A stretch of 64,000 nucleotides of DNA from Conexibacter woesei Iso977N (lineage in GTDB: Bacteria > Actinomycetota > Thermoleophilia > Solirubrobacterales > Solirubrobacteraceae). Position numbers and translations under genes: made by a program. Under the pieces are notes generated by a model that saw only the letters and a program-made list of their open reading frames with translations, was not told where the DNA came from and searched no databases. Location of the stretch: contig NZ_AUKG01000002.1 in the NCBI RefSeq assembly GCF_000424625.1, forward strand, positions 868,001-932,000. The letters run 5' to 3'. Below, one piece after another: positions 14,727 through 31,595 of this stretch (position 1 is its first letter; each line of letters opens with the position of its first letter).

Positions 14727-17700
14727 ATGAGCGTAGAACAGGATTTCCTGCGGCAGTTCCTGGACGCTGAGCTCGGGCACTCGCTTGGCGCTTATCCAGT
14801 CGCCAACGAAGCGCTGACCGATCTCGGGCGAAGCCTCCGTTCGTCGGACAACGGTGGCTCTGCCCCGGAGTTGGGCTGGCTCGATGGGCTGTCCAAGCTG
14901 ATGGCCGCCTACAACCGAAAGCTTCATCAGGAAGTGCACGCTGCGTCGGCCGAGCGGCGACATCCGGCGCCGCTCTTTTTCCCTTGGTCGAACGGGGGCC
15001 TGTTCGACCCAAGGGGCAGCGGCAATGCCGCGGCGGTCGCGCCTTCTGAGGACTGGGTCGCGGGGTACTACCACGCTGCAGTCGACGCCCTCGCCGGCGA
15101 AGGCGACGTCATGCTCGCCAGATGGCTGCTGATGTCGCGCGACGGAAGCGCCCCGGTCGATGGTGGGCCGCTGGCGCCGGCCGAGCGACCTCGTCCGGGG
15201 AAGCTCGAGCGCTACCGTCGCCGGCTCTCGGTGGCCGAGCAGATCGAGCCGCGCATCGTGCCGGACGACCCGGCGGGGCGGATCGTGAAGGCCGACCTCA
15301 GCAGCGACCCGGCTCTCATCGGCTACGTCGTGTCGGCGCTGGTGGAGGGTCATCTGCTGACACACGGAGTCGAGTGGGCGCAGGCAGGTGATCTCGGCCA
15401 TCAGCTCGAACGCGACCGGGCGAACGTGAGGGACCAGCTCGACCGTGCCGAGGCGTTGCTCACGTTCGTGTACTCGATCTCCCGGACGTGCCCGTGGCTG
15501 TTCGCGGCGCGGGAGGAAGAGCGACAGTGGGTGCAGGCCAACGCGCCCATGTGCTGGCACCAGATGGTGCCGACGGTCTCCCTCTGGCTCGCCACGCAGG
15601 TGCCGCTGCTCGCGCTGCACCGTCGTGCGTACTGCCACGCGCTCCGGGGCGAAGCAGAGGAGGCGTACAAGGACTATTACAAGCTCCAGCAGCAGATCCG
15701 GCACACCGAGCGCCGCCTGCGCGCAGCGCCCTCGGTCGTGGTGGGCGCGACCGACTTCCTCGCGGCCCTCGACGCGATGGCCGACCACCACATCGGGGAG
15801 CTTTATCGCGCGAAGCAGGCACACACGACCGCACTGACCCATCTGACGCGCGCGGACGCGCGCTTGGAACGGCTGCGCACCGCGGGAACCGATAGCCGCG
15901 CATTGCCCGACGAAGCCCTCACGAGCGCACGCTGGCGTATCGAGCTTCTACTGAGCAACGGTAAGGCGCATTACGAGATGGGGCGCCACAAGCAGAGCCT
16001 GGCGTGGTACCTGCGCGCCTGGAAGTGGGTCTTGGAGATCCAGGCCGGCGACGCGGGGACCGAAGTGAACTCGGAGCCGATCGACGAAGCCGTGAGCTGG
16101 CTGGCGGCGGTTGACCATGAGCCGGTCATCTACAAGGACGATCTCAACCGCTTCATCCGCCCAATCGCAGCGCAGCTTGACGGCATCATGATCAACCGGC
16201 GGCTGGAGGCGCTGGCGGCCGACGTGCTCACTCGGCTCGGTCATTTGTTGTACGTCTTGCGGATCGAACCCGAGGACTCCTGGGAACCGGATGCGAACGG
16301 CCGAATCGAGGTGCCGACGCTCAAGTTCCTGAAGAAGGCTCTCCAGTGCGACAGCGCGAGCACCATGTTGCGTACCGACATCCTCAAGCTCGCGTACCGC
16401 CTGCTCGAAAACGGCCAGCGCAGCTGGGAAGAGCTCGAGGAGAGCGTCATCGACATGGACGAGATCGGGATCCAACACCAGTGGCAGGGTGGTGAGGACG
16501 ACTTCGCGCGAGTCTCCCGCGCGACCGAGTACGTGCTGCTTCGCGAGCTGCTTGCGACCACCGAGGCCGTGAAGGAGCCGATCGGGAGGCGGGGGACGAT
16601 CATCGACGTCCATGAGGCACAGACGCAAGAGATCGCCCGCCGGCTGCTCGCCGGGGTGTTCATCCACACCGACAGCATCAACGTCCGTCGCGCCCAGGTT
16701 CACGAACGGCTCACCGGTGATCACAAGCCGTTTGCCGGGGCCTCCCCGGCGGATGGTCCTGCCATCGAGCTGGTCAGCATGCGGCGTTTCAGCTCAGCGT
16801 TCGCCCTGCTACCGCGACCCGCGGCGTTCCGGTCGTTATCAGGCGGCTACTTCGTGCGCATTCGCTCGACGCCGAGGGCTGCGCCGCTCGGGATCGTGAT
16901 TGATCCGGGGACGGACTTCGTCGAGACGCTGTACCGGACCGGCTTCTCCGTCGCCGACGTGCAGATGATCATCGTGACGCACGACCACGTTGATCACATG
17001 GCCGCCCTTGAGCCGCTGCTGTCGCTGCTCTACGAGCGGCGCCAGATCAAGGGCAAAGAGGCTGACCCGGCGTTGCGCGACGGTGAGCTTCCGCTGCTGG
17101 GCAACCGTGGAGTGCTCGCGCGACTCCGTGAGACGGCGCAGTACAAGCAGCTGAAGTTGTATGAGTTCGCGCCCCAAGGACCGGCGCGAAACGCGGAAAG
17201 GTGCGATTCGGCGACTGTGGAAGGTGGCGACTCGCCGGCCGAGAAGTTGCCGGAGTCGATCGACGCCCTCAACGCTTGGCTCAAGAGGCAGCTCGGTGAC
17301 ATGGAGGTAAGGATCACGCCGGTGTCGAGCGAGGTGATGCGCGAAGGCGGCCACCAGGACAACTCGCTGCAGGCGTCCTTCGGGTTCGCGCTCCAGGTCG
17401 GCGGTCTCGATGGTCCGTCGATCGGGTTCACGAGCGACATGCCGCGCTCGGAGGCGGACTGCGGACCACTGCTGGAGCCTTTGACGAGCTGTGACGTCCT
17501 CATCGCCCATCTCAGCTCGTTGCCCGTGTCGGAGTTGCGGACGGCCGCCGGCCTCGGCACGCGAGGCCATCTGAAGACCTCGGAAGCAGAGGATCGCACC
17601 TGGTTGCTGAACGTGTTTAAAAGCGCCGAGACCGAGCCAGACCATTACGAGCCCGATCTGGCGTCGCGGCTGAGCTACGCGTACTGGTTGGGCAACGGTG

Positions 17701-18194
17701 CCGCGGCGATCGATCTCGTTGGCGGGGCACGACTGGAGAGCGGAAGCAAGATGCCTGCACACCTGTACCTCCGTGGGCTGATCGACGTGGCGCGCGCGCA
17801 TCGGGAAGCCGGGCGGGAAGGGCGCCTGTTCCTCGTGGGTGAGCTGAGCGAGGAACTTGGTTCACTGCGCGGGAAAGTCGCTCACTGGGTTACGAAGTCG
17901 TTGCGCAACGGCGGCTCGTGGACGGCACTGACCGCCGACATCGGGCTCGACCTCATCGTCGGGCCTCGCGCCGCGGATGGCAGCGCGCGCGTCAAGCTCC
18001 GGTGCGACACGTGCGATCTCGACAACGACCTCGCCTACGACGAGCGGTATCACCACCCCCGTGAGATGTCGGAGGTCTGCATCAAGGGCGAGAACGAAGG
18101 GATTTTCTACAACTGCTCGGATCACGATCCAGGGGCGCAGCAGTCCCCCATGTTCCTAGAGCGGCTTGAGCGTTACGACATGTTCGGACGCTGA
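14727..18194 (+). CDS. TPR-like/metallo-beta-lactamase protein of a conflict operon
   Basis: A 1155-residue cytosolic protein. Residues about 200-500 are helical and TPR-like. Residues about 690-960 are a metallo-beta-lactamase fold: THDHVDH at 751-757 is the HxHxDH zinc motif, and FTSDM and LIAHLSS supply later metal-site elements. The C-terminus carries a possible zinc cluster (RCDTCD, EVCIKG, YNCSDHD). The family is not one I can name; MBL folds act as hydrolases or nucleases on many substrates. It is first of three genes; nine bases separate it from the hydrolase gene. The DNA is less GC-rich than the core genome. Likely a sensor or effector enzyme. Confidence 0.75.
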   Translation: MSVEQDFLRQFLDAELGHSLGAYPVANEALTDLGRSLRSSDNGGSAPELGWLDGLSKLMAAYNRKLHQEVHAASAERRHPAPLFFPWSNGGLFDPRGSGNAAAVAPSEDWVAGYYHAAVDALAGEGDVMLARWLLMSRDGSAPVDGGPLAPAERPRPGKLERYRRRLSVAEQIEPRIVPDDPAGRIVKADLSSDPALIGYVVSALVEGHLLTHGVEWAQAGDLGHQLERDRANVRDQLDRAEALLTFVYSISRTCPWLFAAREEERQWVQANAPMCWHQMVPTVSLWLATQVPLLALHRRAYCHALRGEAEEAYKDYYKLQQQIRHTERRLRAAPSVVVGATDFLAALDAMADHHIGELYRAKQAHTTALTHLTRADARLERLRTAGTDSRALPDEALTSARWRIELLLSNGKAHYEMGRHKQSLAWYLRAWKWVLEIQAGDAGTEVNSEPIDEAVSWLAAVDHEPVIYKDDLNRFIRPIAAQLDGIMINRRLEALAADVLTRLGHLLYVLRIEPEDSWEPDANGRIEVPTLKFLKKALQCDSASTMLRTDILKLAYRLLENGQRSWEELEESVIDMDEIGIQHQWQGGEDDFARVSRATEYVLLRELLATTEAVKEPIGRRGTIIDVHEAQTQEIARRLLAGVFIHTDSINVRRAQVHERLTGDHKPFAGASPADGPAIELVSMRRFSSAFALLPRPAAFRSLSGGYFVRIRSTPRAAPLGIVIDPGTDFVETLYRTGFSVADVQMIIVTHDHVDHMAALEPLLSLLYERRQIKGKEADPALRDGELPLLGNRGVLARLRETAQYKQLKLYEFAPQGPARNAERCDSATVEGGDSPAEKLPESIDALNAWLKRQLGDMEVRITPVSSEVMREGGHQDNSLQASFGFALQVGGLDGPSIGFTSDMPRSEADCGPLLEPLTSCDVLIAHLSSLPVSELRTAAGLGTRGHLKTSEAEDRTWLLNVFKSAETEPDHYEPDLASRLSYAYWLGNGAAAIDLVGGARLESGSKMPAHLYLRGLIDVARAHREAGREGRLFLVGELSEELGSLRGKVAHWVTKSLRNGGSWTALTADIGLDLIVGPRAADGSARVKLRCDTCDLDNDLAYDERYHHPREMSEVCIKGENEGIFYNCSDHDPGAQQSPMFLERLERYDMFGR

Positions 18195-18203: not shown

Positions 18204-19625
18204 ATGACCCAAGCCCGACCTGATGTCAGCTATGACGCCGTCGTCTTCGTTCCGGGGATCTTAGGCAGCTCGCTCCGTCTTACCGAGACCGGTGAGGAGC
18301 TCTGGGGCTTCGCCAGCGCGGTGAAGTACTCCAGGATCTGGCGATCCAACAGGCTGGCAAGCAAGCTCGCGGTCACCGCCGACGAGCTCGCTGGCGTCAC
18401 CGGACGAGTCGTCGCCGATGGATTGCTCCAGGCGCCGGCTGCGGCACCGATCCTCCAGGGCCTCGAGCCGTACACGGATCTCGTCGAGGGGCTCCGGAAG
18501 GTCATGGCCAACCGGGCGGCCGTGGTCGAGTTCCCTTACGACTGGCGGCTTTCGGTCCGGTACAACGCTGCTGAGCTGGCACGCACCGCGGCAGCTCACC
18601 TCGAAACTTGGCGCCGCCACCCCGCGGTGACCGGCGCACCGACGGCGCAGAGCCCGCGGCTCGTCATCGTCGCTCACTCCATGGGTGGACTGCTGGCGCG
18701 CGCGTTGCCGACGGTGGAGGGCCGGGATGGGGTCCCGGCCGTCACGGAGAGGCTGCGGTCGGTGATCACGCTCGGGACGCCGTTCCTCGGGGCGGTGAAG
18801 GCCGCGGTCCTGCTGAACAGCGGTCATGGCGTTCGGCTCGGCCATCGCCGGCGGATCCAGCGGGTCGCTGCGACGTTCCCCGGCGTCCACGACCTGCTGC
18901 CGACGTACCGCTGCCTCCGAAGCGGCGAGGATCTGCTGCGACTCACGGCAGACGACATCGCGGCGCTCGGCGGCGATCGCACGCTCGCGCAAGAGGCGAT
19001 CGACTTCGCTCGCGCGATTCAGGAGAACGAGCTGTCTCACCACATGATCTACGGAACCCATCAGACGACGTTGCAGAGCATGCGGTTGGAGAACGGGGCC
19101 GTGATCGCATCACCCCATCACTTCGAGTGGGCAGGAGACGAGCCCGCCCTGGATTCCAGGGATGCGCTCATTCCACGGAAGGTCAGCGGGGACGGCACGG
19201 TGGGTGGCGACTGGGCGACGCACGGCCATCCCGGGGTCCCGTTCCCGCTGCCGCAGCAACACGGCGCGCTCGCAAAATCCCCGGAAGCCGTCATATCTGT
19301 CGCTGCGGCAGTCCAGCGGCGGCCGCTCGGCAAGGTCCAGGGCGGTGGGGAGATCGGGTTGTCGGTGCCGGACGTCGTGGCCCCCAACGCGGTGTGGAGG
19401 ATCACGCTCACTGGTGCTTCCGGGCCGTCCGCGGTCACGGCCGGTGTGACTGACGCTGAGACCGGAAGGGAAGTGCATGACGTGCACTTCGTGCGTGCGG
19501 GCAACGAGCTCGTGGGGTCCCTCGCGCTCCGGCGTCCGGGGATGTACCGCGTCGAGGTCGCCCACGGCGGATGGTCACCGACCTCGCAGCTGGTGCTCTG
19601 CGTCGAACCGGGGGACGAGGAATGA
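18204..19625 (+). CDS. LCAT-like alpha/beta hydrolase
   Basis: A 473-residue alpha/beta hydrolase resembling lecithin:cholesterol acyltransferase-like lipases: it opens with VVFVPGILGSSL and has EFPYDWRLS. The nucleophile is Ser159 in AHSMGG, the acid Asp330 in SGDGTV, and the base His353 in QQHGAL, so the triad is complete. From about residue 390 a beta-sandwich-like tail follows. No signal peptide is seen, so it acts inside the cell. It overlaps the next gene by ATGA, showing translational coupling. In a defence setting such lipases can attack membranes; that role is inference. Confidence 0.85.
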   Translation: MTQARPDVSYDAVVFVPGILGSSLRLTETGEELWGFASAVKYSRIWRSNRLASKLAVTADELAGVTGRVVADGLLQAPAAAPILQGLEPYTDLVEGLRKVMANRAAVVEFPYDWRLSVRYNAAELARTAAAHLETWRRHPAVTGAPTAQSPRLVIVAHSMGGLLARALPTVEGRDGVPAVTERLRSVITLGTPFLGAVKAAVLLNSGHGVRLGHRRRIQRVAATFPGVHDLLPTYRCLRSGEDLLRLTADDIAALGGDRTLAQEAIDFARAIQENELSHHMIYGTHQTTLQSMRLENGAVIASPHHFEWAGDEPALDSRDALIPRKVSGDGTVGGDWATHGHPGVPFPLPQQHGALAKSPEAVISVAAAVQRRPLGKVQGGGEIGLSVPDVVAPNAVWRITLTGASGPSAVTAGVTDAETGREVHDVHFVRAGNELVGSLALRRPGMYRVEVAHGGWSPTSQLVLCVEPGDEE

Positions 19626-22600
19626 ACGGATCGCCTCTGGACCCCGCCGCACTGACGTTCGTCCCGATGGCCTTCGGCGAGTTCGAGCACCAAGACTTCG
19701 GCGAGCAGAGGCTCGAGGTGGACGAGCAGGTCGAGAAACTGCTGAAGCTCCTAGAGCCCTTCGGCGCGGACTTCGTCGAGTGGGACCTTTCGATGAAGGA
19801 ACGCACTCTGAGCATGGCGCAACGCCGGCTGGTGCTCTGGAAGACGAGCGTCGCCCCGAACGCCCCCACGATCCTCTACTGGGCGGGCCACGGCTTCAGG
19901 TCAGGGCGGGGCTACGCACTTGCCTGCTACGAGAGCAGGGACGATGTCCCCGGAAGCGGGCTGGCGGCCGAACACCTGGCGTCGTTCATCCAGGACCGCC
20001 AGGCTCGGAGCCAGGACCCTCCATGGTGCATCGTCATCGTCGACGCGTGCTGCGGTCATGACGTGGCCATCGAGCTGTGCACGAGGCTCGTCACGGCAAA
20101 CGTCAGGAACGTGCTGCTGATCGGTGCGGCGGAACCTGGCGCGACGAGATTGGGCGAGATCACCCGCGCGTTGACTCTGGTGCTGGAAGAGGCCGACTTC
20201 CGGCGCAACTTGGAGATCAGCCTGATCAACCTGAAGGCGTCGCTCCGTGACGAGTCGGTGCGCCAGCATCTGTCCGTCCACGACGTGGAGCTGCTGCCCT
20301 CGGCGAGGCTCGAAAGCAGAGCGCGTCTACGGTTCGCGGTCTCTTTGGATCTGCAGGCCGGATTCGAGTCGGCGTTGTCGGCGCTTTCCCAGGACGAGCG
20401 CGAGGCATTGGTGCAGCGCATCGATCTGGACGAGACGACCTGGCAGTTCGTCGGACGCAAACCGGAGCACAGGCGCATCGTCGAGTGGGCGGCGTCAACC
20501 GAGCCCTTGCTCATCGTGTCTGGGCCGCCCGGTGCCGGCAAGTCGGCACTGCTGGGCGCGACGTTCGTCCGGTCGTGGCCGGGGCTTCGCGAAAAGCTGG
20601 AGAGGCAAGGGGTCCTGATGGAGCTCGAGCCCGACGAGGCGCCGCCGGCCGACGCGTTCCGTGCGGTGATCCGGCTCTCCGGGCATACCACGATGTCGGC
20701 GATGCGCCTGATCGGAGACGCGCTCGATTGGTGTTGTCACACGACAGCGTCTCCGACGGAGCAGATGCAGGCGCTGCGTGAGGCCGCCGCCGCGACGGGG
20801 GCGCTCTTGATCGCCGATGGCGTCGACGAGGCGCGCCAGCCGCTGGGCGTCGCGCGCTTGCTTCGGGTGATCGCCGACGCGGGGGCGCGGGTCCTGGTCG
20901 GGACGCGCCCGTCGACCAAGGACGTCGCCGGCGCGGAGGCCTCGCCCCACCAAGACATCCTCGAAGTCCTCACCGACAGGATCGAGGCCGAGGTCATCGA
21001 TCTCGGGTACCGCCACGAGGACCTGACGGAGTTCGTGATCAGCGAGCTCGATGCGAAGCGCTACGGGCGATTCGACGCGCCATACCGGCGCGCTAAGCGC
21101 GTCCACATCGTGAGGATCCTCGCCGATGAGCAGAGGGCGGACTTCCTGCTCGCCAGCCTCGTGCTCCGCGAGCTCGCCGCCGACACGGAGCTTCTCGAAA
21201 GCGGCCGTGAGGAGGATCTCGACCGTCTGTTGCGCAAGGACCTGCGCGCGATCTTCGACCAACTCGTCGCGCGTCTCGCCGCGAAGTCGGCGTCCAATCG
21301 CGCGATCCTCCAAGCGCTGGCGCTGGCTCAGGGACGCGGGATGCCCGTCGCGGGTGATGTGCTCGCGGCTACGGCCGCAGCGTTGAGTGAGGACACGTCC
21401 GCCCCGGTCACAAGGTCGGACATCGCGGAGCTCTTCAGGGACGCCCGTGCCTACATCGTCTCCGATCTCGAGGACGGGCAGACCGTCTACCGCTTCGCCC
21501 ACAAGCTGTTCAGCGACCTGCTGGGGGGCGACGATGCGGCGAAGCACGACGTCGTCGCGCGCGCCCTGATCGCCCAGGCCGGCGACGGCACCGAACCCCC
21601 GAGCCCTTATGTCGTCCGTTGGCTCTCGCGTCATGTGGCGAACGGTGGTCCGGCCGCGTGGGCTGCCCTTGGGAATGAGCCTGCGCTGATCGACGCGCTC
21701 GATGTGGCAGCACTGACCTCTGATGCCCAGAGAGCGGGGCTCAGCACGCTGCCCCGTGACGTCGTCGCCACGATCTCGGTTCAGAACCTCATCGCCGAGA
21801 GCGCGCTGGACACCACGATCTGGGGTGCCGAGGTCGCTGGTCGGGGACGCTCCCGGTCGGGGCTGCGCCAGCTCGGTGCCGCACGCCTGCGGCCGACCGG
21901 GGGCGCAGCCCAGTCACCGCCGGGCGTGACCGGATGGTCGCTGCGCTGGAGCGAGCTGCGCCGGACGCCGCCGCACATCCTCGCGATCCGTGCCGACGCG
22001 CCCGTGATCGCCCTGGTCTGTGCCGAAAACCGGCCGGTCGGCGAGGACGCCAGGCCGGTGATCGCAGCGCTGTTCGAGGACGGCGCGATCCGACTCTGGG
22101 ACACGACGAGCGGCTCGGCGCTGGGTCCGCCGATCGTGCCGTCGGGCGCTGGAGGCAAGGTCGCCAATGGAGCGCTTGCGCTCGTCGAAGCGGAGGGGCA
22201 GGCGCCGTTCCTCGTCGCCGGGATCGACAGCGAAGTGACCGTCTGGGACCTGTTGACGGGTGTCCGCATCACGTCGATGGCGCCTCACCGGCCCGTCACC
22301 GCACTGACCGCCGAATCCAAGAACGAGGCCAGCGGCGACCCTGCCGACCTGCGGATCTTCGTCGGCAGCAGAGACGGCACGGTCACCTCGCTTAACGCGG
22401 CGGGCGTCATCTCGACGACGCACAAGACCGCCCCTCCAGGCCGCGCGTTGCGTTCCCTCGTCATGAGCCCACCAGGGATGGCCGTGCGGCTGCTTGCGGG
22501 CGGGGACGACGAGCTGGTGCGCAGCTACTTCGTGACGGAAAACGGGGAGCTTCGTCCCGCAGGGGCCGATCCGAGCTGTCACGCGCTCGACGAGTGGGTG

Positions 22601-23872
22601 TGCGATCTCGCCGCCTATGACGAGAACAAGCAGCTCCACGTCGCCGTGGTGGGCGATGAGGCGATGCTGGCGGTCTGGGACGTCGACACGTCCGAGCGCA
22701 GGACGGCCCCGATCCCTGAGCCGAGCACCAGCGTGATCACCTTCGTCCAAGGTGACGAGCGGAAGTTCGTCGCCGGTGGGAAGAGCGGAGGCCTGCACGT
22801 CGTGCGGGCCTCCGAGTTGATCAGCAGGCCGACGGTGCCACGCAGAGAGGCTGCAGACCCGGGCGCGGTCGTCGACGCCCATCAGGACACGGTCGCGGCG
22901 CTCGCCAGCTACACCCTCGGTGAGATCGTTCGTGTGGTCAGCGGGTCGGCTGACGGCACCGTGAAGATCTGGGAACCCGATCTCAGGACGGACGACGGCG
23001 CCGTGAGGCCCGGATCGGGCGCGGCCTGCGTCGCCTCCGTCACCGCACCGGACGGTACAGCCCTGATCGCCGTGGGCACCGCCGACGGCGTGGTGCAGTT
23101 CTACGACGCCGCGGGCATTGCGGTGTATGCCTCAACATTAAGAGTGGCAGGTCGCAACGTGGTTGTCGGTATCCGCGAGCTGCCAGACGGACGTGCGGCC
23201 ATCGCCGTCAAGGACGAGAACGTCGTGCTCTGGGATCTCGCGTCGAGGACGTCCACCGAGCTCAAGCACGACGCGCCCGTGACGGCGATGACCGTGGCGG
23301 AGATTGACGGCACTGTGATACTCCTGACCGCGACAACCCGGGGACGTGTGACCGCCTGGGACGTGGCGGCGCGGGAAGAGCTGACCTCACTGCGTCACGA
23401 CGTGCAAGGCTCGGTGTCCGCGTTCATCCAGCTCGGTGACGTCGTCGCGGCTTTCGGGTCCGGTCGTGGAGCGATCGTGATTCCATTGAAGGCCGGCGCA
23501 TCCGGGGCGGTCGCGGACCGGAAGGCCGTCGCAAGAGTGACTGCCGCATGTCGTGTCGGCGCCGCGCTGGTGGTGGGCGACACCGAGGGGCTTGTGTATG
23601 TTTGGCCGCTCGACGGGACCGGTCAGGCGCGGGAGCTGACCGGCCACCGTCAGGCCGTCACGAGCCTCGCGCCGATCGAAGGCGGCGCGCTGGTCCTCAG
23701 CGGCAGCCGCGACGGGACCGTCCGGATCTGGGACGTGGGAAGCGGCGACGAGGTGGACGTCATACGCTTCGGCATCGGGGTGAACGACCTGCACGTCCTG
23801 CCGGACGGTGCGGTGGCCATCGCCACCGACGAGGGTGTCCTCGTGGTCGAGCTCAACGCGCCGCACCGCTGA
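19622..23872 (+). CDS. Caspase-like protease fused to STAND ATPase and WD40 repeats
   Basis: A 1416-residue protein in three parts. Residues about 10-200 are a caspase-like (C14) peptidase: His90 in YWAGHG and Cys143 in VDACCG form the dyad. Residues about 285-600 are a STAND/NACHT-type ATPase: FVGRKPEH, P-loop GPPGAGKSA (301-309) and a Walker B-like LLIADGVDEA. From about 770 to the end are WD40 repeats, clearest in SGSADGTVKIWE and SGSRDGTVRIWDV. The plan is that of an inflammasome-like sensor: WD40 senses, the ATPase oligomerises, the protease is released. It is the last gene of the triad and ends four bases from the convergent operon. Confidence 0.88.
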   Translation: MNGSPLDPAALTFVPMAFGEFEHQDFGEQRLEVDEQVEKLLKLLEPFGADFVEWDLSMKERTLSMAQRRLVLWKTSVAPNAPTILYWAGHGFRSGRGYALACYESRDDVPGSGLAAEHLASFIQDRQARSQDPPWCIVIVDACCGHDVAIELCTRLVTANVRNVLLIGAAEPGATRLGEITRALTLVLEEADFRRNLEISLINLKASLRDESVRQHLSVHDVELLPSARLESRARLRFAVSLDLQAGFESALSALSQDEREALVQRIDLDETTWQFVGRKPEHRRIVEWAASTEPLLIVSGPPGAGKSALLGATFVRSWPGLREKLERQGVLMELEPDEAPPADAFRAVIRLSGHTTMSAMRLIGDALDWCCHTTASPTEQMQALREAAAATGALLIADGVDEARQPLGVARLLRVIADAGARVLVGTRPSTKDVAGAEASPHQDILEVLTDRIEAEVIDLGYRHEDLTEFVISELDAKRYGRFDAPYRRAKRVHIVRILADEQRADFLLASLVLRELAADTELLESGREEDLDRLLRKDLRAIFDQLVARLAAKSASNRAILQALALAQGRGMPVAGDVLAATAAALSEDTSAPVTRSDIAELFRDARAYIVSDLEDGQTVYRFAHKLFSDLLGGDDAAKHDVVARALIAQAGDGTEPPSPYVVRWLSRHVANGGPAAWAALGNEPALIDALDVAALTSDAQRAGLSTLPRDVVATISVQNLIAESALDTTIWGAEVAGRGRSRSGLRQLGAARLRPTGGAAQSPPGVTGWSLRWSELRRTPPHILAIRADAPVIALVCAENRPVGEDARPVIAALFEDGAIRLWDTTSGSALGPPIVPSGAGGKVANGALALVEAEGQAPFLVAGIDSEVTVWDLLTGVRITSMAPHRPVTALTAESKNEASGDPADLRIFVGSRDGTVTSLNAAGVISTTHKTAPPGRALRSLVMSPPGMAVRLLAGGDDELVRSYFVTENGELRPAGADPSCHALDEWVCDLAAYDENKQLHVAVVGDEAMLAVWDVDTSERRTAPIPEPSTSVITFVQGDERKFVAGGKSGGLHVVRASELISRPTVPRREAADPGAVVDAHQDTVAALASYTLGEIVRVVSGSADGTVKIWEPDLRTDDGAVRPGSGAACVASVTAPDGTALIAVGTADGVVQFYDAAGIAVYASTLRVAGRNVVVGIRELPDGRAAIAVKDENVVLWDLASRTSTELKHDAPVTAMTVAEIDGTVILLTATTRGRVTAWDVAAREELTSLRHDVQGSVSAFIQLGDVVAAFGSGRGAIVIPLKAGASGAVADRKAVARVTAACRVGAALVVGDTEGLVYVWPLDGTGQARELTGHRQAVTSLAPIEGGALVLSGSRDGTVRIWDVGSGDEVDVIRFGIGVNDLHVLPDGAVAIATDEGVLVVELNAPHR

Positions 23873-23876: not shown

Positions 23877-26624
23877 TCACGCCATCCGGCCGCCTTGGCC
23901 TCCGAGGCGGCCGAACCCGGATTCGAGGTCGCGATAGTAGCGCCGGTACCGGCCCGACTCGGGAGTCTTCCTGACCTCGTCCCAGTTCGCGCCGGCATCC
24001 TGCCGGGGCACCGCGCGCGTCACGTACTTGCCGGACTGCGGGGGAGTGACGGACAGGGGCCTCGCCGCCGTGAGGTCCCATTCGAGGGCGCCAAAGGGCA
24101 GCGCGTAATACGGGGCGCTCGGCTGGCTGTCGACCAGGATCGCGGGCACCACCGCTCGCCGCCGCCACACGCGCTCGACGACCCGATGAGTGCCGTCGCA
24201 GACGACGAACTCGCGGACGGTGCGGTCTTCGTCTCCGTCGTAGAGCGCCTCGCCGAGGTCATCGGCGTGCAACTGCTCGAGGATCGGTGGCGTGACGCTG
24301 ACCGGGATGCCGACGCCGCCCTTGCGGACTCGCGCGAAGCCCCACGGGTTGCCCTCCGCGGCCAACTGCTCGAAGACCGGCAACAGCTCGTCGACGCGGG
24401 CCAGCCCTTTGCTCAGGACGTACCGCTGCACGGGGCGCAGCCGTCCGAGCGCGTGCTCGGGCTTCAAGTCCTCGAGCCCGATCTCGTCTGCCCTCGCGGC
24501 GGCGAACACGAGGATCGCGTCGCGCTCCTGTCGCCACTTGCCCACGCTCATGCGCCTCAGGTAGACCTGCCGGAACTGCTCGGCCGGGTAAGCGGCGCCT
24601 TCGAGATCCGAGATCTTCGCGAAGGTGACCTTGCTCAGGGCATCGACCGTCGAGAGCCCTGGAACATCCGGGTCTGGCTCGGCGTCGTCGGACCAGCTGA
24701 ACGTTCGCACGATCTCGTACCCGCGCTCGGTCTCGACAGCGCCGCCCAACATGAGCTCCGGGCGCAGCTCGCCGGACTCGAGCTCGGACGCCAGCACCCT
24801 GTCGAGCTGGGACATCACGTCGGCGTTGCGCGCCTTGATCGACGGCACCCCGCGCCACGGTGCCTCCGTCCCGGGCGCGCCGATCGGGAACCACACGGCA
24901 CCTGGTGGCGCCATCTCCGCCTGTGCCCGTGCCGCCTTGTCGGGGTTGGCGACGAGCTCGGCCGTAGGGTCGAAGCGGACGGCGCTTCCGCCGTCGCTCA
25001 AGGCCGTCATGGCGAGCCCTCGTGCCGGCCCGGCGGAGGTCTCGCCATCGCTCGCGCTGTCCAGGTCATGGAACCATGCGATGAGCCTCTTGACATCCCG
25101 CGCTCGCTGATCGTCGTGGTCGGATGACCGCTCGACGAGCGGGAGCAAGGTGACGAAGTGGTAGTCGAACTCCGTGACCACTCCGCTCGTCGGCGAGAAC
25201 TTACGCGTGGTGAAGTTCGCGATCTCGCGGATCTCGTCGGCCCAGACGTCCTCGTCCAACTCGCTGCTGTCGAGGATCCGCTCGAGGGCGTCCTCGAACC
25301 CGACGGCGTGCTCGGCGCGCTCGAGATCCTCGGCGCGTTCGGTGGCCTGGCGGATGACGTCGTCGCGCAAATGGCCGAGCAGGGTGGCCGGGTACTGGAA
25401 GGCAGGGAGTAGCAAGGTGTTCCACTCACCCAGCGGAGAGGCCTGCAGCGGGGAGTGGTTGCTGAGGAGCAGCTCGTACCCACCGCCTTCTCGCGGTCGG
25501 ATGACCACGAGCAACATGTATGACATCGCTTTGACGGCCGGCATGCCGGCGAGCTTCAGATCCTCGGTGCAGAGCTGGACGTAGCCGCTGCCGTCCCAGG
25601 TGTCCTTGATCGCGGCGAGCAGCGCGTCCAGCTCGTCCCTTGCCTCCTGCTTCGTCTCAGGCAATGCCCGCACGGCCGCGATGCGGCTGGTCACATGGCT
25701 GTACAGGCGACGCTCCCCGACGTCGACCCGCGACGCGGATTCGAGCGAGCGGACGATCTGGACGGGCTGCGCCGGCACGTTGTATCCGAGGTCATGGTTG
25801 AACGCGATCTGCGCCTGGCCCTTGACGACGTCAATGCGCACGCGCGCGACGCCTTGCTGGGCGGCACCCGGGTCGAATGGCGGACAGGGCACGATCGATA
25901 CCCCCATGGTCCGCTGCCTGGCGTCCACCGGCGTTCGGCTGACGGTCGCGATCCCGTCGTCAGCGCCGGAACCAGCCAGCAGGACGACCGACGCACGCAG
26001 CCGCTCCCAGCGCTCGGTGTCCGTGGACCCGTCCGTGGCGATACCGATCACGTAGAGCGGCGCGGTGCTGCTCGTCTCCATGGCGAGCTTGCGCACCATC
26101 GCTTGAGCCGCGTCGACGTCGCTTTGAGCTCCCAGCGCGATGAGCGCGACGTACGCGTAGGCGTGACCCGCCATGTCGTCGGGTGCCGGGTCGTTCGGAT
26201 GGGTGATGCCGAAGGCCGCGGTGACGATCGACCCCTGCCCGTCGTTGCGTGTGAACGCCTGCAGCAGCTTCGACGGGCGGGAGGTCGGCGCGCACACGAT
26301 CGGCGTGTCTTGGCTATCGGGGATGCGACGTAGCGTCTCCGTCCACAGGCCGTCCGGATCGATGGCATCGTCACTGGCCTCGACTGCAGGGTCGCCGAGC
26401 ACGAGGAGGATCTGCGACATCTGCGCCCGTAGCGGTTCGAGCAGCTTGCGGGCGCGATCGGTCGTCCGCTGGCCGAGACCCTCCCTGCTTTCTCCTTGCC
26501 GGGCAACGGCAAGAGGCTCAACGATGACCTCCACGTCGACGACGGGCCCGGTGAACGTCGGCACGTGCGCGGTGATGTCGAAGTCCGTTGCCTGGTTGGT
26601 GGCGTAGGCGATCAGGGGGTCCAC
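23877..26624 (-). CDS. Large protein with C-terminal ParB-like domain, last gene of the seven-gene operon
   Basis: A 915-residue protein of unknown family. The N-terminal half is alpha/beta (ILLVLGDPAV, LYVIGIATDG) and the middle has YMLLVVIRPREGG and YELLLSNHS. Residues about 686-915 repeat the domain of the 213-residue protein encoded three genes upstream in the operon: VQRYVLS, CDGTHRV (Asp810-Gly-Thr-His-Arg814), PYYALPFG, and a tail YRRYYRDLESGF. DGxHR recalls the ParB/sulfiredoxin fold. GTG 26624 is chosen because GAGGAGC lies about ten bases before it; GTG 26744 would overlap the HAD gene and adds non-coding-looking sequence. Confidence 0.6.
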   Translation of the reverse strand: MDPLIAYATNQATDFDITAHVPTFTGPVVDVEVIVEPLAVARQGESREGLGQRTTDRARKLLEPLRAQMSQILLVLGDPAVEASDDAIDPDGLWTETLRRIPDSQDTPIVCAPTSRPSKLLQAFTRNDGQGSIVTAAFGITHPNDPAPDDMAGHAYAYVALIALGAQSDVDAAQAMVRKLAMETSSTAPLYVIGIATDGSTDTERWERLRASVVLLAGSGADDGIATVSRTPVDARQRTMGVSIVPCPPFDPGAAQQGVARVRIDVVKGQAQIAFNHDLGYNVPAQPVQIVRSLESASRVDVGERRLYSHVTSRIAAVRALPETKQEARDELDALLAAIKDTWDGSGYVQLCTEDLKLAGMPAVKAMSYMLLVVIRPREGGGYELLLSNHSPLQASPLGEWNTLLLPAFQYPATLLGHLRDDVIRQATERAEDLERAEHAVGFEDALERILDSSELDEDVWADEIREIANFTTRKFSPTSGVVTEFDYHFVTLLPLVERSSDHDDQRARDVKRLIAWFHDLDSASDGETSAGPARGLAMTALSDGGSAVRFDPTAELVANPDKAARAQAEMAPPGAVWFPIGAPGTEAPWRGVPSIKARNADVMSQLDRVLASELESGELRPELMLGGAVETERGYEIVRTFSWSDDAEPDPDVPGLSTVDALSKVTFAKISDLEGAAYPAEQFRQVYLRRMSVGKWRQERDAILVFAAARADEIGLEDLKPEHALGRLRPVQRYVLSKGLARVDELLPVFEQLAAEGNPWGFARVRKGGVGIPVSVTPPILEQLHADDLGEALYDGDEDRTVREFVVCDGTHRVVERVWRRRAVVPAILVDSQPSAPYYALPFGALEWDLTAARPLSVTPPQSGKYVTRAVPRQDAGANWDEVRKTPESGRYRRYYRDLESGFGRLGGQGGRMA

Positions 26625-26736
26625 GTGCTCGGTGCTCCTCGAGGTGCGCGCGTTGGCGGTGTCAGAGATGCTCAGCGATCGGCAGGAATGCGCGATGCGC
26701 GCGACCCTACCGGTCTGCGACGCTTGCGACCACAGT

Positions 26737-27411
26737 TCAGACACCGAGTGCTGAGGCCAGCTCCGACAGATCAGCGACGACCAGCACGCCGGGAGGCTCA
26801 GTGCCCTCCGGATCTCGCCTCACCCAGGCTGCCTGCATCCCCGCGGCGAGCGCTCCGTGGACGTCCTTGGCAAGGTCGTTACCCGCGTGGAGCACCGACG
26901 ACGGCGGGAGGTCCAGAGCCGTGCACGCGGCGCGGAAGATCCGCGGGTCCGGCTTTGAGACGCCGACGTCTCGGCTGGTGATCACCCCGTCGAACCAGCC
27001 CGCGACGCCGATGCGCTCCACGTCAGAGGCCCCTTCGGTCAGCGCGAGGATCCGGTAACGCTCACCGATGCGGCCCAGAGCGGATTCGGCCTCCGGGAAC
27101 GGCACGACGTGCTGCCGCGCGTCGTCTGTCGCCTGGAGTGCCGGGCCGGCGAGGTCAGGGTCGTGGCCACAGGCCGCGAGCTCCGCCCGGAGGCCGTCGG
27201 GGGTGAGCCACCGCTGGACATCGGAGGACGCCTGTCGCGTCTCCCGCGGCGCGGTCAGCGCAGCGGAAAGGGCCGTTGGGTCGAAGGCCTCGGCCGCGCG
27301 GGGTCCGGCTTCCGCGAGGAACGCCTTCAGTGTCTCGGCGATGTGCATCGCGATCGGTGCGTAGGGCCAGATCGTGTCGTCGAGATCGACGGTGACGGCT
27401 TGGACGTCCAT
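26737..27411 (-). CDS. HAD-superfamily hydrolase with canonical motif
   Basis: A 224-residue haloacid dehalogenase-like phosphatase. Motif I is VDLDDT with nucleophile Asp9 and acid Asp11, motif II lies in ILALTEG, Lys in VSKPDPRIF, and motif IV in HAGNDLAKD. A helical cap lies between motifs I and II. Such enzymes dephosphorylate nucleotides or sugars. The start overlaps the stop of the preceding HAD gene (TGATG); GTG 27414 is the alternative start. Confidence 0.85.
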   Translation of the reverse strand: MDVQAVTVDLDDTIWPYAPIAMHIAETLKAFLAEAGPRAAEAFDPTALSAALTAPRETRQASSDVQRWLTPDGLRAELAACGHDPDLAGPALQATDDARQHVVPFPEAESALGRIGERYRILALTEGASDVERIGVAGWFDGVITSRDVGVSKPDPRIFRAACTALDLPPSSVLHAGNDLAKDVHGALAAGMQAAWVRRDPEGTEPPGVLVVADLSELASALGV

Positions 27412-28106
27412 CACATGCTGAAGATCGCTTCGACGTCGACCTCGGCGATTGACCGGGACGCCGCCGTGGGCCGAGGCAGGCTCCCGTTGAGAACACGGAC
27501 GAGGTCCGAGGCCTCGCGTTGCGGTCGATGGAGGAGCCAGAGTGTCCGCACACCTTGTGCGATCGCGGGCGCGATGTCCTCCGCGTAAGAGTCCCCGACC
27601 ATGAGCGTGGCGTCGGCAGTCATGCCCGATCGTCGCAGGATCGTTGCGACGGGCACCGTCGATGGCTTGGCGACGCCCTCGCGGAACGAGAAGAACTGCA
27701 ACTCGGCAGGGATCTCGCGATCGAAGAATTCGCCGAACAGCGAGCGGACCGACTCGAGGTACGGCGCCCAGATGTTCGAGATCAGCGCCAGCACCACCCC
27801 GTCCTCCCGGAGCCTGTTCAGGGTGGCCAGCGCGCCGTCGAGGGCTTGCGCCTCCTTCGTCTGCGCGGTCCAGACCTCCGTGACGACGTTCGCCGCATCC
27901 GCCCGGTCTGCTCCAGCTGCGGCGAGGAACTCGGTCACTTCGGCCGGCGTCTCGAAACGACTGGTCATGAGGACATCGCGCAGGGCCTGTCGCGTCTCAC
28001 GCGTGAGGGCAAGGCGATCGGCGATCCGCGACCACGGTCCCCGCGACGGCCCAGTTACGAGCGTCGCGCCGATGTCGAAGATCACGAGCCGGTCGAGATG
28101 GGGCAT
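27411..28106 (-). CDS. HAD-superfamily hydrolase with DxG motif
   Basis: A 231-residue HAD-like protein. Motif I reads FDIGATL, so nucleophile Asp11 is present but the usual second aspartate is Gly13, as in DxG-type HAD proteins. The lysine in VAKPSTVPV and motif IV MVGDSYAEDI are present. It may still be a phosphatase with altered proton donation, or use another chemistry. Starts ten bases after the stop of the ParB-like gene and is followed by the second HAD gene with stop-start overlap. Confidence 0.8.
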   Translation of the reverse strand: MPHLDRLVIFDIGATLVTGPSRGPWSRIADRLALTRETRQALRDVLMTSRFETPAEVTEFLAAAGADRADAANVVTEVWTAQTKEAQALDGALATLNRLREDGVVLALISNIWAPYLESVRSLFGEFFDREIPAELQFFSFREGVAKPSTVPVATILRRSGMTADATLMVGDSYAEDIAPAIAQGVRTLWLLHRPQREASDLVRVLNGSLPRPTAASRSIAEVDVEAIFSM

Positions 28107-28116
28107 CCCGGCGGTG

Positions 28117-28758
28117 TCAGGCGCTGAGATGGCTGGGGTTCGAGCGCTTGCGCTGTGCCTGCACGCCGGGGAACAGGGCGTTGAAGTCGCGGAACAGAGC
28201 CTTGTAGTTGTCAGGGTTCCGGTAGGTCTTCTTCTCGAACCCGTCCGGCAGCTCATCGAGCGGCGTGACATCGGCCCATCCGTTGGGAAGGGCGAGGGCG
28301 TAGTACGGGTACTCGACCGGGACATCGAGCACGCGCACGATCGAGATCGGGCTCCCAACAGACCGGGCGGCCCAGATGCGGTGCATGCCGTCATTGGCGA
28401 GCAGGCATGTTCGGCCGTCGGGCTCGTGCGACTCCTCGGCGATCGGAGGCAGCAGCGGGATCACGACGTCCGGGTCGTCGGACGTCCGGATGAGCAGGGC
28501 GCCGTCCAGGGCGAACAGGTCGATGCTTAGCTCGACCAGGGCCGACCGGATCTCCAAGATCTTGTCGACCGTGTCGTTGAGCACGTAGCGTTGCGCCGGC
28601 ACGACCGCTTCGGGATCAAAACCCGGAACCAGCTCGATCCGGGACCTGGCGTACACCTCGGGCTCGCCGAGGCCGCGTAGGCGCGTCCGGCGCAGTTTCG
28701 CCAGCAGGGTCGCCTCGTCGATGGTGTCCACGGACAGGATGCTCAGCGGGTCGCTCAT
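28117..28758 (-). CDS. ParB-like domain protein
   Basis: A 213-residue single-domain protein. Residues 123-127 are DGMHR inside LLANDGMHRIWAARSVG, the pattern of the ParB/sulfiredoxin fold (DGxHR, then a small helix and a VxV strand). Other landmarks are AQRYVL (55-60), PYYALALPNGW (151-161) and NYKALFRDFNALFPG (184-198). The same landmarks, with identical spacing from DGxHR to PYY, recur in the C-terminus of the 915-residue protein encoded at the end of the operon. ParB-like domains bind or hydrolyse nucleotides or cut DNA; which applies here is unknown. It overlaps the thymidylate synthase-like gene by ATGA. Confidence 0.7.
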   Translation of the reverse strand: MSDPLSILSVDTIDEATLLAKLRRTRLRGLGEPEVYARSRIELVPGFDPEAVVPAQRYVLNDTVDKILEIRSALVELSIDLFALDGALLIRTSDDPDVVIPLLPPIAEESHEPDGRTCLLANDGMHRIWAARSVGSPISIVRVLDVPVEYPYYALALPNGWADVTPLDELPDGFEKKTYRNPDNYKALFRDFNALFPGVQAQRKRSNPSHLSA

Positions 28759-30314
28759 CGCCCCTCCTCGCGACCGTCGGTCACCGTTCGGAGCTCTTGT
28801 TCTGCCAGCGTCAGCTCACGTGCGATCCATAGGGCATGCGAGACCTGGCTGATGGCCATATCGCCGCTGATCTTCTGCTGGATCTTCAAGCCGCTTCTCT
28901 CTTCGTAGCGTTTGATGAGGTTGCCTGCGTAATAATGCTCAGCAATCACGACCCCACGCAGGGTGTCGGCGGTGACGACGAAGTGCCCGTTCGGATCCTC
29001 TCGGATCGAGGACTTGCGGTTGTCGTGGTCGACGTCGTCGTCACGTTGCCAGGATCGCTCGAGCTCCATGGCCGGGCCGTAACGGCTGCTGCTCGGATCG
29101 ATCCCGAGCAACTGGCTGATGACGGTCATCGGTCCGGGTGCGAGGTCCGTGTTGACGGCGACATGATCGAGGATCGCCATGAGCCCGTACACGTTCTGGA
29201 GCCACGCGGTGAGGAGGTTGTGCACTCTATAGGTGGCCGTGAGCGCAAGCCGATCACCGGTCTCACGGAACTGCAGGCTCACGAGGCACGGAGTTGCTGC
29301 ACCGGGGGGCGCGCCAACTCCTGCCAGGTCGCGTGTGTTGTCCCACAAGGACAGATACGCACCACGCGTCCGCGGCTGCTTCCGCAGCTTCTCGATGATG
29401 GTGTGAAGCATGTCGGCCCCCGCGCCCTGGTCGAAATGCGCTCGCAGCCGGTTTCCGTAGTTGTATGAGATGTCGACCGGAAGCTCGGGGTCGAGGATCG
29501 CCTCTTGGTACCTCTGGAACTGCTCGAGGTCGAAGCCGTACCGCGCGAGGGCTTCGCGCGAGTGCTCCCGCGGATCTGTGATCACCGTTTTGACGTTGTG
29601 CAGTTCCAGACGCGTGCTCTCGTCGGCAAGGGTCGCCACACGACCGAAGCGCATCGTCCGGACGACGAGCTCTTCCCACGCCGCGAGGGGCGTGGCGCGG
29701 ATGACCTGATGTCCCGCGATCTCGGAAGGGCGTTGCTCGCGGGGGTCCGGGTCGGGGATGTCCACCAGCACGCGTTCTCCGAGATCGTCCGGATCCGCTC
29801 GGGGCAACGTGTCGAGAAGCCCGACCACACGTTCCATCGCGCCGTCATCCGACGGCTTCCCGGCGTATGTGAAGGTGAGACGTTCCTGCAGCGGCGTCAC
29901 GTCGAGACCATTGCCGCGCCGGAAGTAGCGCGATGTTCCTGGGATGCGCAGCATCGGCGCCCCGAGGAGCGTCGTCTCTTCCAAGCCGTGTGCAAGGAGC
30001 GCCTCGATCTCGGCGCAGCTGTCTTGCCCGAGCTTCCGTCCGAAGGCGATCAAGTGACGCACCTGGGGGTTGTACAGCAGGTTGGACAGCATCCCGTGTA
30101 GGCCGTCGCCGTACAGGTTGGCCACCGTGGCGACGCGGCTGCGTGCCGGGTCCAGAACCGCAGGTGCCTCGCGAGCAAGCTTCTTGCGAACGTGCTCGTA
30201 GGGCGACCAAAGCAGGATCAGGCCGACATCGCCCATGGGGTTGACGTCGTGCAAACGATCAGCGTAGTAGCGCGCTTCCCATGTGGGCGCGGCGGTGGTG
30301 ATGGCCTTTCTCAT
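28755..30314 (-). CDS. Thymidylate synthase-fold protein with MtrA/DUF4346-like N-terminal domain
   Basis: A 519-residue protein. Residues about 25-150 resemble the MtrA/DUF4346 domain (ATVANLYG, YNPQVRHLIAFGRKLGQDS, then ALLAHGLEE, LRIPG), without the cobamide-binding histidine of MtrA. Residues about 280-405 follow the thymidylate synthase core: YGNRLRAHF, QPRTRGAYLSLWD, nucleophile Cys343 in TPCLVSLQF, Arg363 in TYRVHN and Asn374 in WLQN. The usual RSxD reads RVHN. A related base-methylating or hydroxymethylating activity on a pyrimidine nucleotide is likely. ATG 30314 overlaps the previous stop by ATGA. Confidence 0.72.
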   Translation of the reverse strand: MRKAITTAAPTWEARYYADRLHDVNPMGDVGLILLWSPYEHVRKKLAREAPAVLDPARSRVATVANLYGDGLHGMLSNLLYNPQVRHLIAFGRKLGQDSCAEIEALLAHGLEETTLLGAPMLRIPGTSRYFRRGNGLDVTPLQERLTFTYAGKPSDDGAMERVVGLLDTLPRADPDDLGERVLVDIPDPDPREQRPSEIAGHQVIRATPLAAWEELVVRTMRFGRVATLADESTRLELHNVKTVITDPREHSREALARYGFDLEQFQRYQEAILDPELPVDISYNYGNRLRAHFDQGAGADMLHTIIEKLRKQPRTRGAYLSLWDNTRDLAGVGAPPGAATPCLVSLQFRETGDRLALTATYRVHNLLTAWLQNVYGLMAILDHVAVNTDLAPGPMTVISQLLGIDPSSSRYGPAMELERSWQRDDDVDHDNRKSSIREDPNGHFVVTADTLRGVVIAEHYYAGNLIKRYEERSGLKIQQKISGDMAISQVSHALWIARELTLAEQELRTVTDGREEGR

Positions 30315-30895
30315 GCGGTCGTCCAAGGCATGACATGGCGCAGGGCCAGGAGCGCCTCGCGAGGGCCGAGGAGCCAGAACCCGCCGCCTGCCTGTCCGAC
30401 GAGATCGACGAAGTCGTCCACGCGCATGCGGGACGGGAGCGCAACTTGCCCGACGGGGTCTCGAAGAAGGACTGCGCGATCCTCGAGGCCATCCACGGAG
30501 ACCACGTGGCGTAGCACGTCCGAGCGAGAGGAGAAGCGTGAGACGTCCATGCCGGCCCCGATGTCGACACCGGCGTCCATGGCCTCCGCGAGGAAGGCCG
30601 CATGGCTGTCCATCGCGACCACGTCGACCGGTGCGTACCGGAAGGCGAGGTCGGGATCACGTGCTTGGAGGTAGGCGGGGAGGAGGCGCTCGGCGTCGCG
30701 GGGGCGCACTCCGACATGACTCGCCGCCGTGCTGACCGCAAGCCCCCAGGGGTTTGGTGTCGCGCGATCAGGCAGGTGCGTCTCCAGGTGGCGGGCCAGC
30801 GCGCTCGGATCGCCACCTGAGAGACCGCGCCGTTCCATGGCGGTCCAGACCCATGCGGTCACGCACGTCTCGCTCGGCCAGTCCACGACGACCAT
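30311..30895 (-). CDS. C39-like papain-fold protein
   Basis: A 194-residue protein with no clear family name. Spacing of Cys11 (SETCVTAW), His130 (LRHVVSVDG) and Asp146 (LRDPVG), plus a C-terminal MRVDDFVDLV and GGGFWLLG, fits a C39-peptidase or BtrH-like papain fold: an N-terminal Cys helix, then H-V-V-S-V-D and a D-P turn. A peptidase or acyltransferase role is inference. The start is at ATG 30895, one base after the TAG of the methyltransferase gene (TAGCATG), and the end overlaps the thymidylate synthase-like gene. Confidence 0.5.
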   Translation of the reverse strand: MVVVDWPSETCVTAWVWTAMERRGLSGGDPSALARHLETHLPDRATPNPWGLAVSTAASHVGVRPRDAERLLPAYLQARDPDLAFRYAPVDVVAMDSHAAFLAEAMDAGVDIGAGMDVSRFSSRSDVLRHVVSVDGLEDRAVLLRDPVGQVALPSRMRVDDFVDLVGQAGGGFWLLGPREALLALRHVMPWTTA

Positions 30896-30896
30896 G

Positions 30897-31595
30897 CTAT
30901 TGCGCTGCTCGGCGCCGCCAGATCGTGGCCATGGTGCGCCGAACGGCCGGCGCTCCGTGCATCTCGCCGGGGCGTTCCTTGCGCCAGACCATCTCGAGTT
31001 GGAGGCAGTCAGCGACATCTTCCATGAGCTCTCGCGCCGAGAAGAGAACACTCCCGACGTCGAGCGCCGGATCGATCACCGCGTGTGGACCCGCCGTGTC
31101 TGAGGGGTGAGACGGGCAAGCTCCGTAGTAGTCGTCGTCCGGTTCCGCAACGGATATGAGGACCCGTCCGGTCGCCTTGAGGACTCGCGACATCTCCGCG
31201 CGGTAGGCGCGTCGCGTCGACGGCTCCACCTGGTGCTTGTACACGAAGGTGTCAACGATGAAGTCGATGCTGCCTGACGCGACCGGCAAGCCGTCGGTCA
31301 GATCGTGGAGGAGGAGCTCAGGCTGCTCGGGTCGACCGGCGAACCGTTGGCGCGCTCTCTCGATCGCGACCTCGGAGCTATCGAAGGCCGTCATCTCGAA
31401 GCCCCGCGAGACGAGGTGAGCCGTGTTACGTCCCGTGCCGCATCCGACATCAAGACCGCGGGCACCAATGGCCGGCGCTCTGTCGAGACGTGACCAGTTG
31501 TCGAGCGCCCAGACGAGCGCGCCCGATGGGCTCTCACGTACGCTCGACGGGACGCCGCCTCGCTGGTACTCGGGGTCCCACAGGCTCGTCTTCAT
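30897..31595 (-). CDS. Class I SAM-dependent methyltransferase
   Basis: A 232-residue Rossmann methyltransferase. SAM binding is shown by LDVGCGTGRNT (residues about 48-58), the acidic end of strand 2 in AFDSS and DFIVDTFV further on. It lacks the NPPY or DPPY motif of DNA adenine methyltransferases, so a small molecule or modified nucleotide is the likelier substrate. It is the first gene of the operon. ATG 31595 has GAGG six bases before it; ATG 31607 is an alternative. Confidence 0.85.
   Translation of the reverse strand: MKTSLWDPEYQRGGVPSSVRESPSGALVWALDNWSRLDRAPAIGARGLDVGCGTGRNTAHLVSRGFEMTAFDSSEVAIERARQRFAGRPEQPELLLHDLTDGLPVASGSIDFIVDTFVYKHQVEPSTRRAYRAEMSRVLKATGRVLISVAEPDDDYYGACPSHPSDTAGPHAVIDPALDVGSVLFSARELMEDVADCLQLEMVWRKERPGEMHGAPAVRRTMATIWRRRAAQ

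Follow-up and report, generated by a model that had tools for sequence, protein, structure and literature searches.

A conserved core of a diverged thymidylate-synthase-fold gene and a ParB-like gene, in part accompanied by a peptidase-STAND module, in Conexibacter woesei and other bacteria: a candidate nucleotide-centered conflict locus

What could be the task of a thymidylate synthase (TS)-fold enzyme which is encoded in one operon with ParB-like and HAD proteins? This question is raised by a stretch of 64,000 nucleotides from Conexibacter woesei Iso977N (the window; C2:868001-932000 in a genome of 5.7 Mb on 9 contigs), in which seven minus-strand frames span positions 23877-31595. A preliminary description had taken these genes as one unit that makes, senses or destroys a modified pyrimidine nucleotide. 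We conclude that the TS gene and its neighbor encoding a Parb-CE domain protein (ParB-CE) are the invariant core of the system. Our favored reading, to which we assign a probability of roughly 45%, is a two-part, nucleotide-centered conflict locus, probably anti-phage, in which this core module is combined with a module of a 915-residue (915-aa) protein and a peptidase-STAND protein. A conflict system of this kind has probably not been described before.

Relatives of TS and ParB-CE were recovered by profile searches only, as single-protein searches of the genome_contigs, viral_contigs and plasmids collections returned zero relatives and the phage collection only the general TS domain. Using the TS profile, full-length orthologs were detected in seven genomes (six genera) of a family sample of 146, in which the members with relatives are Solirubrobacterales (Conexibacter, Solirubrobacter, Patulibacter); in the window's own genus, six further genomes yielded none. 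A genome-wide scan added a TS of Actinokineospora spheciospongiae, which belongs to another class (51% identity), and those of metagenome-assembled genomes (MAGs) of Candidatus Eremiobacterota and Abditibacteriota (32–34% identity). The TS and ParB-CE genes adjoin each other in nine of ten bacterial loci (numbered with L in the following) from several Solirubrobacterales genera, Actinokineospora (L025) and Abditibacteriota (L030), the exception being Eremiobacterota (L029). Both genes also occur on a jumbo-phage contig (L089), where a deoxycytidylate (dCMP) deaminase gene intervenes; thus, the conserved neighborhood for which the preliminary description had proposed to search does exist. Since the locus orthologs, at 40–62% identity, recur in matching neighborhoods, the gene set is beyond chance.

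The recurrence of all seven genes, also proposed as a check, holds for the core only. HAD1, the HAD hydrolase gene next to ParB-CE in the window, was found in five of the ten bacterial loci (window, L018, L019, L021, L025) and on L089; it lies directly after ParB-CE in the window and between TS and ParB-CE in the other four bacterial loci. The 915-aa gene is present in four loci and the methyltransferase gene in three, adjoining TS in L018 and L021. For the second HAD gene (HAD2) and the small gene at 30311-30895, no ortholog was seen in the other loci examined. The C39-like label given earlier to the small protein found no support in Pfam, NCBIfam, PADLOC and PHROG, in which its sequence has zero matches; a Cys...His...Asp pattern can be discerned only by eye. 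What survives of the earlier interpretation is an operon centered on a pyrimidine-nucleotide enzyme with HAD and ParB-like partners, conserved neighborhoods and adjacent conflict genes; a single fixed seven-gene unit does not. Three loci show peculiarities of their own. In L030, deaminase, ParB-CE and TS genes are consecutive. In the Eremiobacterota MAG (L029:7558-11446), the TS gene overlaps a gene for a KAP P-loop NTPase, and HAD and methyltransferase genes follow 1.3–3 kb downstream. The TS gene of a Patulibacter MAG (L005:11133-12880) is broken by a stretch of N together with an RlmN-like insert, apparently a misassembly.

The window TS matches the Pfam TS domain PF00303 with 32 bits (32–42 bits across the TS proteins scored; cut-off 24.3) and carries PF14251 (PterinBD-DUF4346) at its C-terminus (43 bits), to which the partial match of NCBIfam PRK00964 is also confined. 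Of the former label "MtrA/TS-fold", the TS part is thereby supported. The MtrA part comes from inspection of the sequence; for the N-terminal part, no Pfam match to PF04208 was obtained at E ≤ 0.5. A predicted structure (predicted local distance difference test, pLDDT, 73.6) shows the TS fold in residues 203–426. Among the structural matches listed are the phage dCMP hydroxylase AfhB (Z 20.6), the MilA enzyme (Z 18.8, root-mean-square deviation 2.6 over 203 residues) and thymidylate synthases (Z about 17), the TS-fold structures ranging from about Z 16 to 20. MtrA structures are absent among the structural matches listed, which is of little weight.

Residues were compared in 16 bacterial and viral relatives. 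The nucleophilic Cys of the P-C motif (window C347), the phosphate-binding Arg (R367) and the uracil-selecting Asn (N378) are kept in 16/16. The His/Tyr pair which contacts the sugar hydroxyl (His207/Tyr209 in E. coli) is absent from the window TS; in the ParB-CE-linked proteins as well as L029 and L084, the SAHIY sugar motif is replaced by sequences of the type SxSxxxD and D169 by Asn (R-x-H-N). The viral relatives L086-L088 retain both D169 and the S-A-H-I-Y motif. The His/Tyr pair is extremely conserved in thymidylate synthases, dCMP and deoxyuridylate (dUMP) hydroxymethylases, MilA and BcmA, and Asp versus Asn acts as a switch between cytosine and uracil (PMC5175136). Because Cys, Arg and Asn are kept while the His/Tyr pair is lost, the enzyme probably acts on the uracil ring and holds the sugar differently. 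The idea that both TS types are catalytically dead was rejected: the nucleophile is Cys146 of P-C-H, which both keep, and not E. coli Cys168, which belongs to the RSCD motif.

With MilA among the closest structures and methyltransferase and HAD genes recurring, the operon might be thought to direct a small-molecule pathway resembling those of nucleoside antibiotics, as for MilA and BcmA, in which methyltransferase, HADs and the C39-like protein would serve as tailoring enzymes. We consider this very unlikely, as the loci share no recurring transporter, resistance, peptide-bond or glycosyl genes, the copies in the phage and in a rumen bacterium comprise only 3–4 genes, and both the window TS and its relatives have the uracil-type Asn rather than the cytosine-type Asp (Asp186) of MilA/BcmA.

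The second core protein was assigned by PF24392 (curated cut-off 23 bits), which scores 92.7 bits in the gene at 28117-28758, 24.8 bits at the C-terminus of the 915-aa protein and 132.8 bits on L089. In a sequence comparison with the PDB, ParB-CE reached none of the solved ParB structures, and a literature search did not trace the origin of the Pfam name Parb-CE. In HAD1, motif I reads D-[IL]-G in all six copies, so that the usual Asp at D+2 is replaced by Gly and an ordinary phosphatase activity is therefore uncertain.

The window also holds a second set of conserved genes. In contrast to the unit delimited by the preliminary description, two plus-strand genes beyond its border, encoding a caspase-nSTAND-WD40 protein and an alpha/beta-hydrolase, belong with the 915-aa protein. 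In the window, the 915-aa gene and the caspase-nSTAND-WD40 gene are convergent, tail-to-tail and 4 bp apart; in L021 and L022 the corresponding pair is likewise tail-to-tail, within 4 bp or overlapping. Orthologs of the 915-aa protein (about 40% identity) were found in L021, L022 and L025 only, always with a peptidase-nSTAND-WD40 gene, and hence this pair accompanies the core in four loci. Within the family sample, the full-length protein occurs in three genomes, all among the seven TS-positive ones (hypergeometric p = 7e-5, uncorrected for relatedness). Both halves form a single operon in L025, with the order alpha/beta-hydrolase, caspase-STAND-WD40, TS, HAD1, ParB-CE, 915-aa homolog, thyA, folA, HIT on one strand. 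The N-terminal peptidase is swapped between loci: it is a caspase in the window and L025, preceded in each case by an alpha/beta-hydrolase gene, and trypsin-like in L021 and L022, where Trypco1 adjoins L022 (96.6 bits) and the trypsin partner in L021 was not identified. The 915-aa homolog of L025 (L025:12976-15999) has an extra N-terminal calcineurin-like phosphoesterase, whose presence suggests an exchangeable effector domain. No domain was assigned by Pfam or NCBIfam to the N-terminal ~720 residues of the 915-aa protein.

Table 1. Genes of the window locus and of the core on the jumbo-phage contig L089. Plain numbers are positions in the window.
Gene or protein	Position	Strand	Remarks
SAM (S-adenosylmethionine)-dependent methyltransferase	30897..31595	-	PF13649, 64 bits
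Small protein, papain/C39-like by eye only	30311..30895	-	window-only
TS, core gene 1; MtrA-like N-terminal part, thymidylate-synthase and PterinBD-DUF4346 domains	28755..30326	-	PF00303, 32 bits; PF14251, 43 bits
ParB-CE, core gene 2	28117..28758	-	PF24392, 92.7 bits; invariant NDGxHR motif
HAD1, HAD hydrolase	27411..28106	-	motif I D-[IL]-G
HAD2, HAD hydrolase	26737..27414	-	domain match; ordinary DxD motif
915-aa protein	23877..26624	-	C-terminal Parb-CE (726-846) and conserved GFGxxGGQGG tail
Caspase-like - nSTAND - WD40 protein	19571..23872	+	domain matches/motifs: AGHG 130, DACCG 183 (caspase-like), GKS 365 (nSTAND)
Alpha/beta-hydrolase (LCAT/PGAP1-like), partner of the caspase gene	18204..19625	+	same pairing in Actinokineospora L025
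Metallo-beta-lactamase-fold (MBL) protein, upstream of the alpha/beta-hydrolase	14727..18194	+	possible further member
HAD1, phage	L089:8077-8760		first of four consecutive genes
ParB-CE, phage	L089:8760-9431		second of four; 132.8 bits
dCMP deaminase, phage	L089:9436-9993		third of four
TS, phage	L089:9983-11485		fourth of four

The arrangement of the operon itself agrees with the preliminary description. From the methyltransferase gene to the 915-aa gene, the intergenic gaps are 1, −16, −4, 10, −4 and 112 bp, the last being the sole sizeable one; the start codon of the TS gene (TTG, 30326) is uncertain. Pfam and NCBIfam likewise agree on the methyltransferase, the ParB-like protein, the two HADs and the second ParB-like domain which ends the 915-aa protein. 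Over roughly 14.7–39 kb of the window, the G+C content is 0.65–0.69, compared to about 0.73 in the flanks. This stretch (14297-39000) starts right behind tRNA-Gly and tRNA-Pro (14297-14460) and contains the MBL-fold gene, possibly a further member of the locus, the alpha/beta-hydrolase and caspase-nSTAND-WD40 genes, the operon and, divergent from it, a complete type I restriction-modification system (HsdM, HsdS, HsdR; 31945-37962). It is probably a genomic island of the defense type; att repeats at the tRNAs and an empty site in a congener were looked for, and neither was found.

In the profile search, TS relatives turned up on six viral contigs. One of them, L089 (286.7 kb), encodes a phage RNA-polymerase beta subunit, a helicase and a baseplate gene, and by its gene content is a jumbo-phage contig carrying the core. 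Among isolated phages (INPHARED), no close relative of its TS or ParB-CE was found. On another viral contig (L086:6233-14713), a TS relative lies by the genes for the large and small ribonucleotide-reductase subunits and thymidylate kinase; this MtrA-like/TS/DUF4346 protein, which has the ordinary sugar motif, probably represents a third kind of thymidylate synthase in phages.

The deaminase in the jumbo-phage operon, the restriction system beside the operon in the window and the precedent of TS-superfamily enzymes which produce modified DNA precursors in phages (PMC5175136, PMC12697855) would fit a role in DNA-base modification. The core would then make a modified deoxyuridine nucleotide for DNA, bacterial copies would be phage-derived or self-marking, and the STAND protein would attack DNA with or without the mark. 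We regard such a role as improbable. Neither a nucleotide kinase nor a DNA-modifying glycosyl- or aminotransferase lies near the core, restriction genes like those of the window were not seen at other loci of the core, and the loss of the deoxyribose-binding His/Tyr pair would be odd for an enzyme acting on deoxynucleotides.

The main rival arises from a conserved cluster of thyA, folA, HIT, RfaE/HldE-like nucleotidyltransferase and deaminase genes (L018:12733-16187, L025:16021-19330, L032:7959-11226, L047:9226-12574), whose deaminase has an additional N-terminal domain of ~170 residues. An initial reading of the neighbors in L018, L020 and L025 as a rib operon was rejected, as Pfam assigns them to ThyA, dihydrofolate reductase, HIT, nucleotidyltransferase and deaminase. 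Judged by the deaminase, 14 of the 146 family genomes have the cluster, and with genome G749, which has the thyA too, this thyA type is found in 15. It is present in all seven TS-positive genomes (p about 3e-8), and co-occurrence of deaminase and TS counted by genus gives p 4e-5, both values uncorrected for relatedness. The core adjoins or lies near the cluster in L018, L020, L025 and L032; in the last, from S. soli, the methyltransferase ortholog stands beside it. The cluster ThyA keeps PCH and is ordinary. ThyX is missing from several TS-positive genomes; the window genome has ThyX as well as the cluster. There, the cluster is about 330 kb from the window, and it was accordingly rejected as a part of the window system. 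On one reading of these gene associations, FolA would be needed because the TS of the system yields dihydrofolate; on another, they would reflect shared pyrimidine metabolism.

Taken further, the core might be an accessory thymidylate or base-modification pathway with ParB-CE as regulator or nucleotide kinase, next to which the 915-aa/STAND genes settled as a separate conflict module. Besides the cluster, this would suit the dCMP deaminase adjoining the core in L030 and the phage, the viral relatives with ordinary sugar motif, one of them between ribonucleotide reductase and thymidylate kinase, and the five loci that have the core without STAND. However, the window genome already holds ThyX and ordinary ThyA/FolA, the ParB-CE-linked TS group has lost the sugar motif, the 915-aa protein, which itself carries a ParB-CE domain, is found only with the core, and L025 is one operon. 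Overall, we think that this specialized metabolism is unlikely, even though it comes closest to the conflict locus we favor.

In the proposed conflict locus, part 1 would consist of TS and ParB-CE, often with HAD1, in some lineages with a dCMP deaminase and in the window with a methyltransferase. The TS domain would use its conserved Cys to transfer a one-carbon unit to C5 of a uracil nucleotide, with a reduced pterin as donor. Since the His/Tyr pair has been lost, plain dUMP is probably not the substrate, which may instead be a nucleotide whose sugar contact is different, modified or absent. ParB-CE would bind, phosphorylate or hydrolyze the TS-derived nucleotide, and HAD1 would process a phosphorylated intermediate. 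Part 2 would comprise the 915-aa protein with its second ParB-CE domain, the convergent caspase-nSTAND-WD40 protein and the alpha/beta-hydrolase. Here, the second ParB-CE may sense either the nucleotide or the condition of part 1, in the latter case guarding the pathway, and thereby gate the STAND ATPase and peptidase. Coupling between a nucleotide module and a peptidase-STAND module would explain why the genes co-occur, why effectors are swapped and why phages have copies.

Several points weigh against this proposal. The genomes bearing the locus are few and related. The core lacks the 915-aa/STAND pair in L018, L019, L020, L030 and the phage contig, so that it can serve its own role without that pair. 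Proximity to the thyA-folA cluster and the constant co-occurrence in the family also fit plain thymidylate metabolism. The AlphaFold model of the 915-aa protein (pLDDT 33) was not used, leaving its N-terminal part unread. Finally, no PADLOC 2.0 model matches TS, ParB-CE, the HADs or the 915-aa protein, and for the STAND protein and the methyltransferase, the latter hit by the generic domain mad2, the matches are only weak or partial. A literature search found no paper describing this gene set.

A bolder version of the conflict locus would be a new form of immune signaling, in which the diverged TS would produce a uracil nucleotide modified at C5 and bearing an unusual sugar. On binding it, a ParB-fold receptor would gate the caspase- or trypsin-armed STAND protein, and the synthetic half found in giant phages would serve counter-defense or their own nucleotides; this we hold to be doubtful. 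If the favored reading is true, a pyrimidine C5-modifying enzyme would join the small set of nucleotide enzymes in bacterial immunity, the Parb-CE family would gain a function, and nucleotide chemistry would be joined to the caspase/trypsin-STAND machinery, of whose triggers little is known. Even if the locus had no role in defense, a TS-superfamily group with catalytic residues but no sugar-binding pair would allow a new substrate specificity to be tested directly, and the core of the bacterial loci is also present on a jumbo-phage contig.

Known systems resemble the locus in parts. Methanogen-type thymidylate synthases (TIGR03283) and PF14251 proteins give the best TS-domain scores (105 bits for the window, 113 for L030, 107 for L029) and share the C-terminal PF14251 and the Cys, Arg and Asn residues. 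However, all three scores are below the cut-off of 174.55, the ParB-CE-linked group has neither the H-x-Y motif nor D169, and window-type TS proteins are about 500 residues long, with an MtrA-like N-terminal part, and nearly always linked to ParB-CE. MilA, the CMP hydroxymethylase of mildiomycin biosynthesis, and BcmA have the TS fold and nucleophilic Cys in common with the window group, in which Ala, as in MilA, often occupies the position of Ser167. In contrast, the window group lacks His216/Tyr218, has Asn (uracil) instead of Asp186 (cytosine) and is not found in an antibiotic cluster. The dU-DNA jumbo phage PBS1 uses a dCTP deaminase and a dTMP phosphatase (PMC12697855), and L089 also couples a deaminase with a phosphatase-type gene for pyrimidine deoxynucleotides; here, however, the core is a TS-fold enzyme with ParB-CE, and the HAD has no Asp at D+2. 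Conflict proteins of the ParB/Srx superfamily (DndB, DpdB, Osa) share the ParB-like fold, as assigned by Pfam, a DGxHR-type motif and conflict settings, but window-type loci have no Dnd/Dpd DNA-modification partners. The second module is closest to the peptidase-coupled, NTP-dependent conflict systems, in which caspase pairs with alpha/beta-hydrolase and trypsin with Trypco1 (Kaur et al., 2020, PMC7159879). Peptidase-nSTAND-WD40 proteins, the same peptidase-partner pairings (window, L025, L022) and exchangeable effector domains are common to both. The words ParB and thymidylate are absent from the text of that paper, and the present loci differ in that the peptidase-STAND gene is paired with a TS/ParB-CE module and a 915-aa protein that has a ParB-CE domain at its end.

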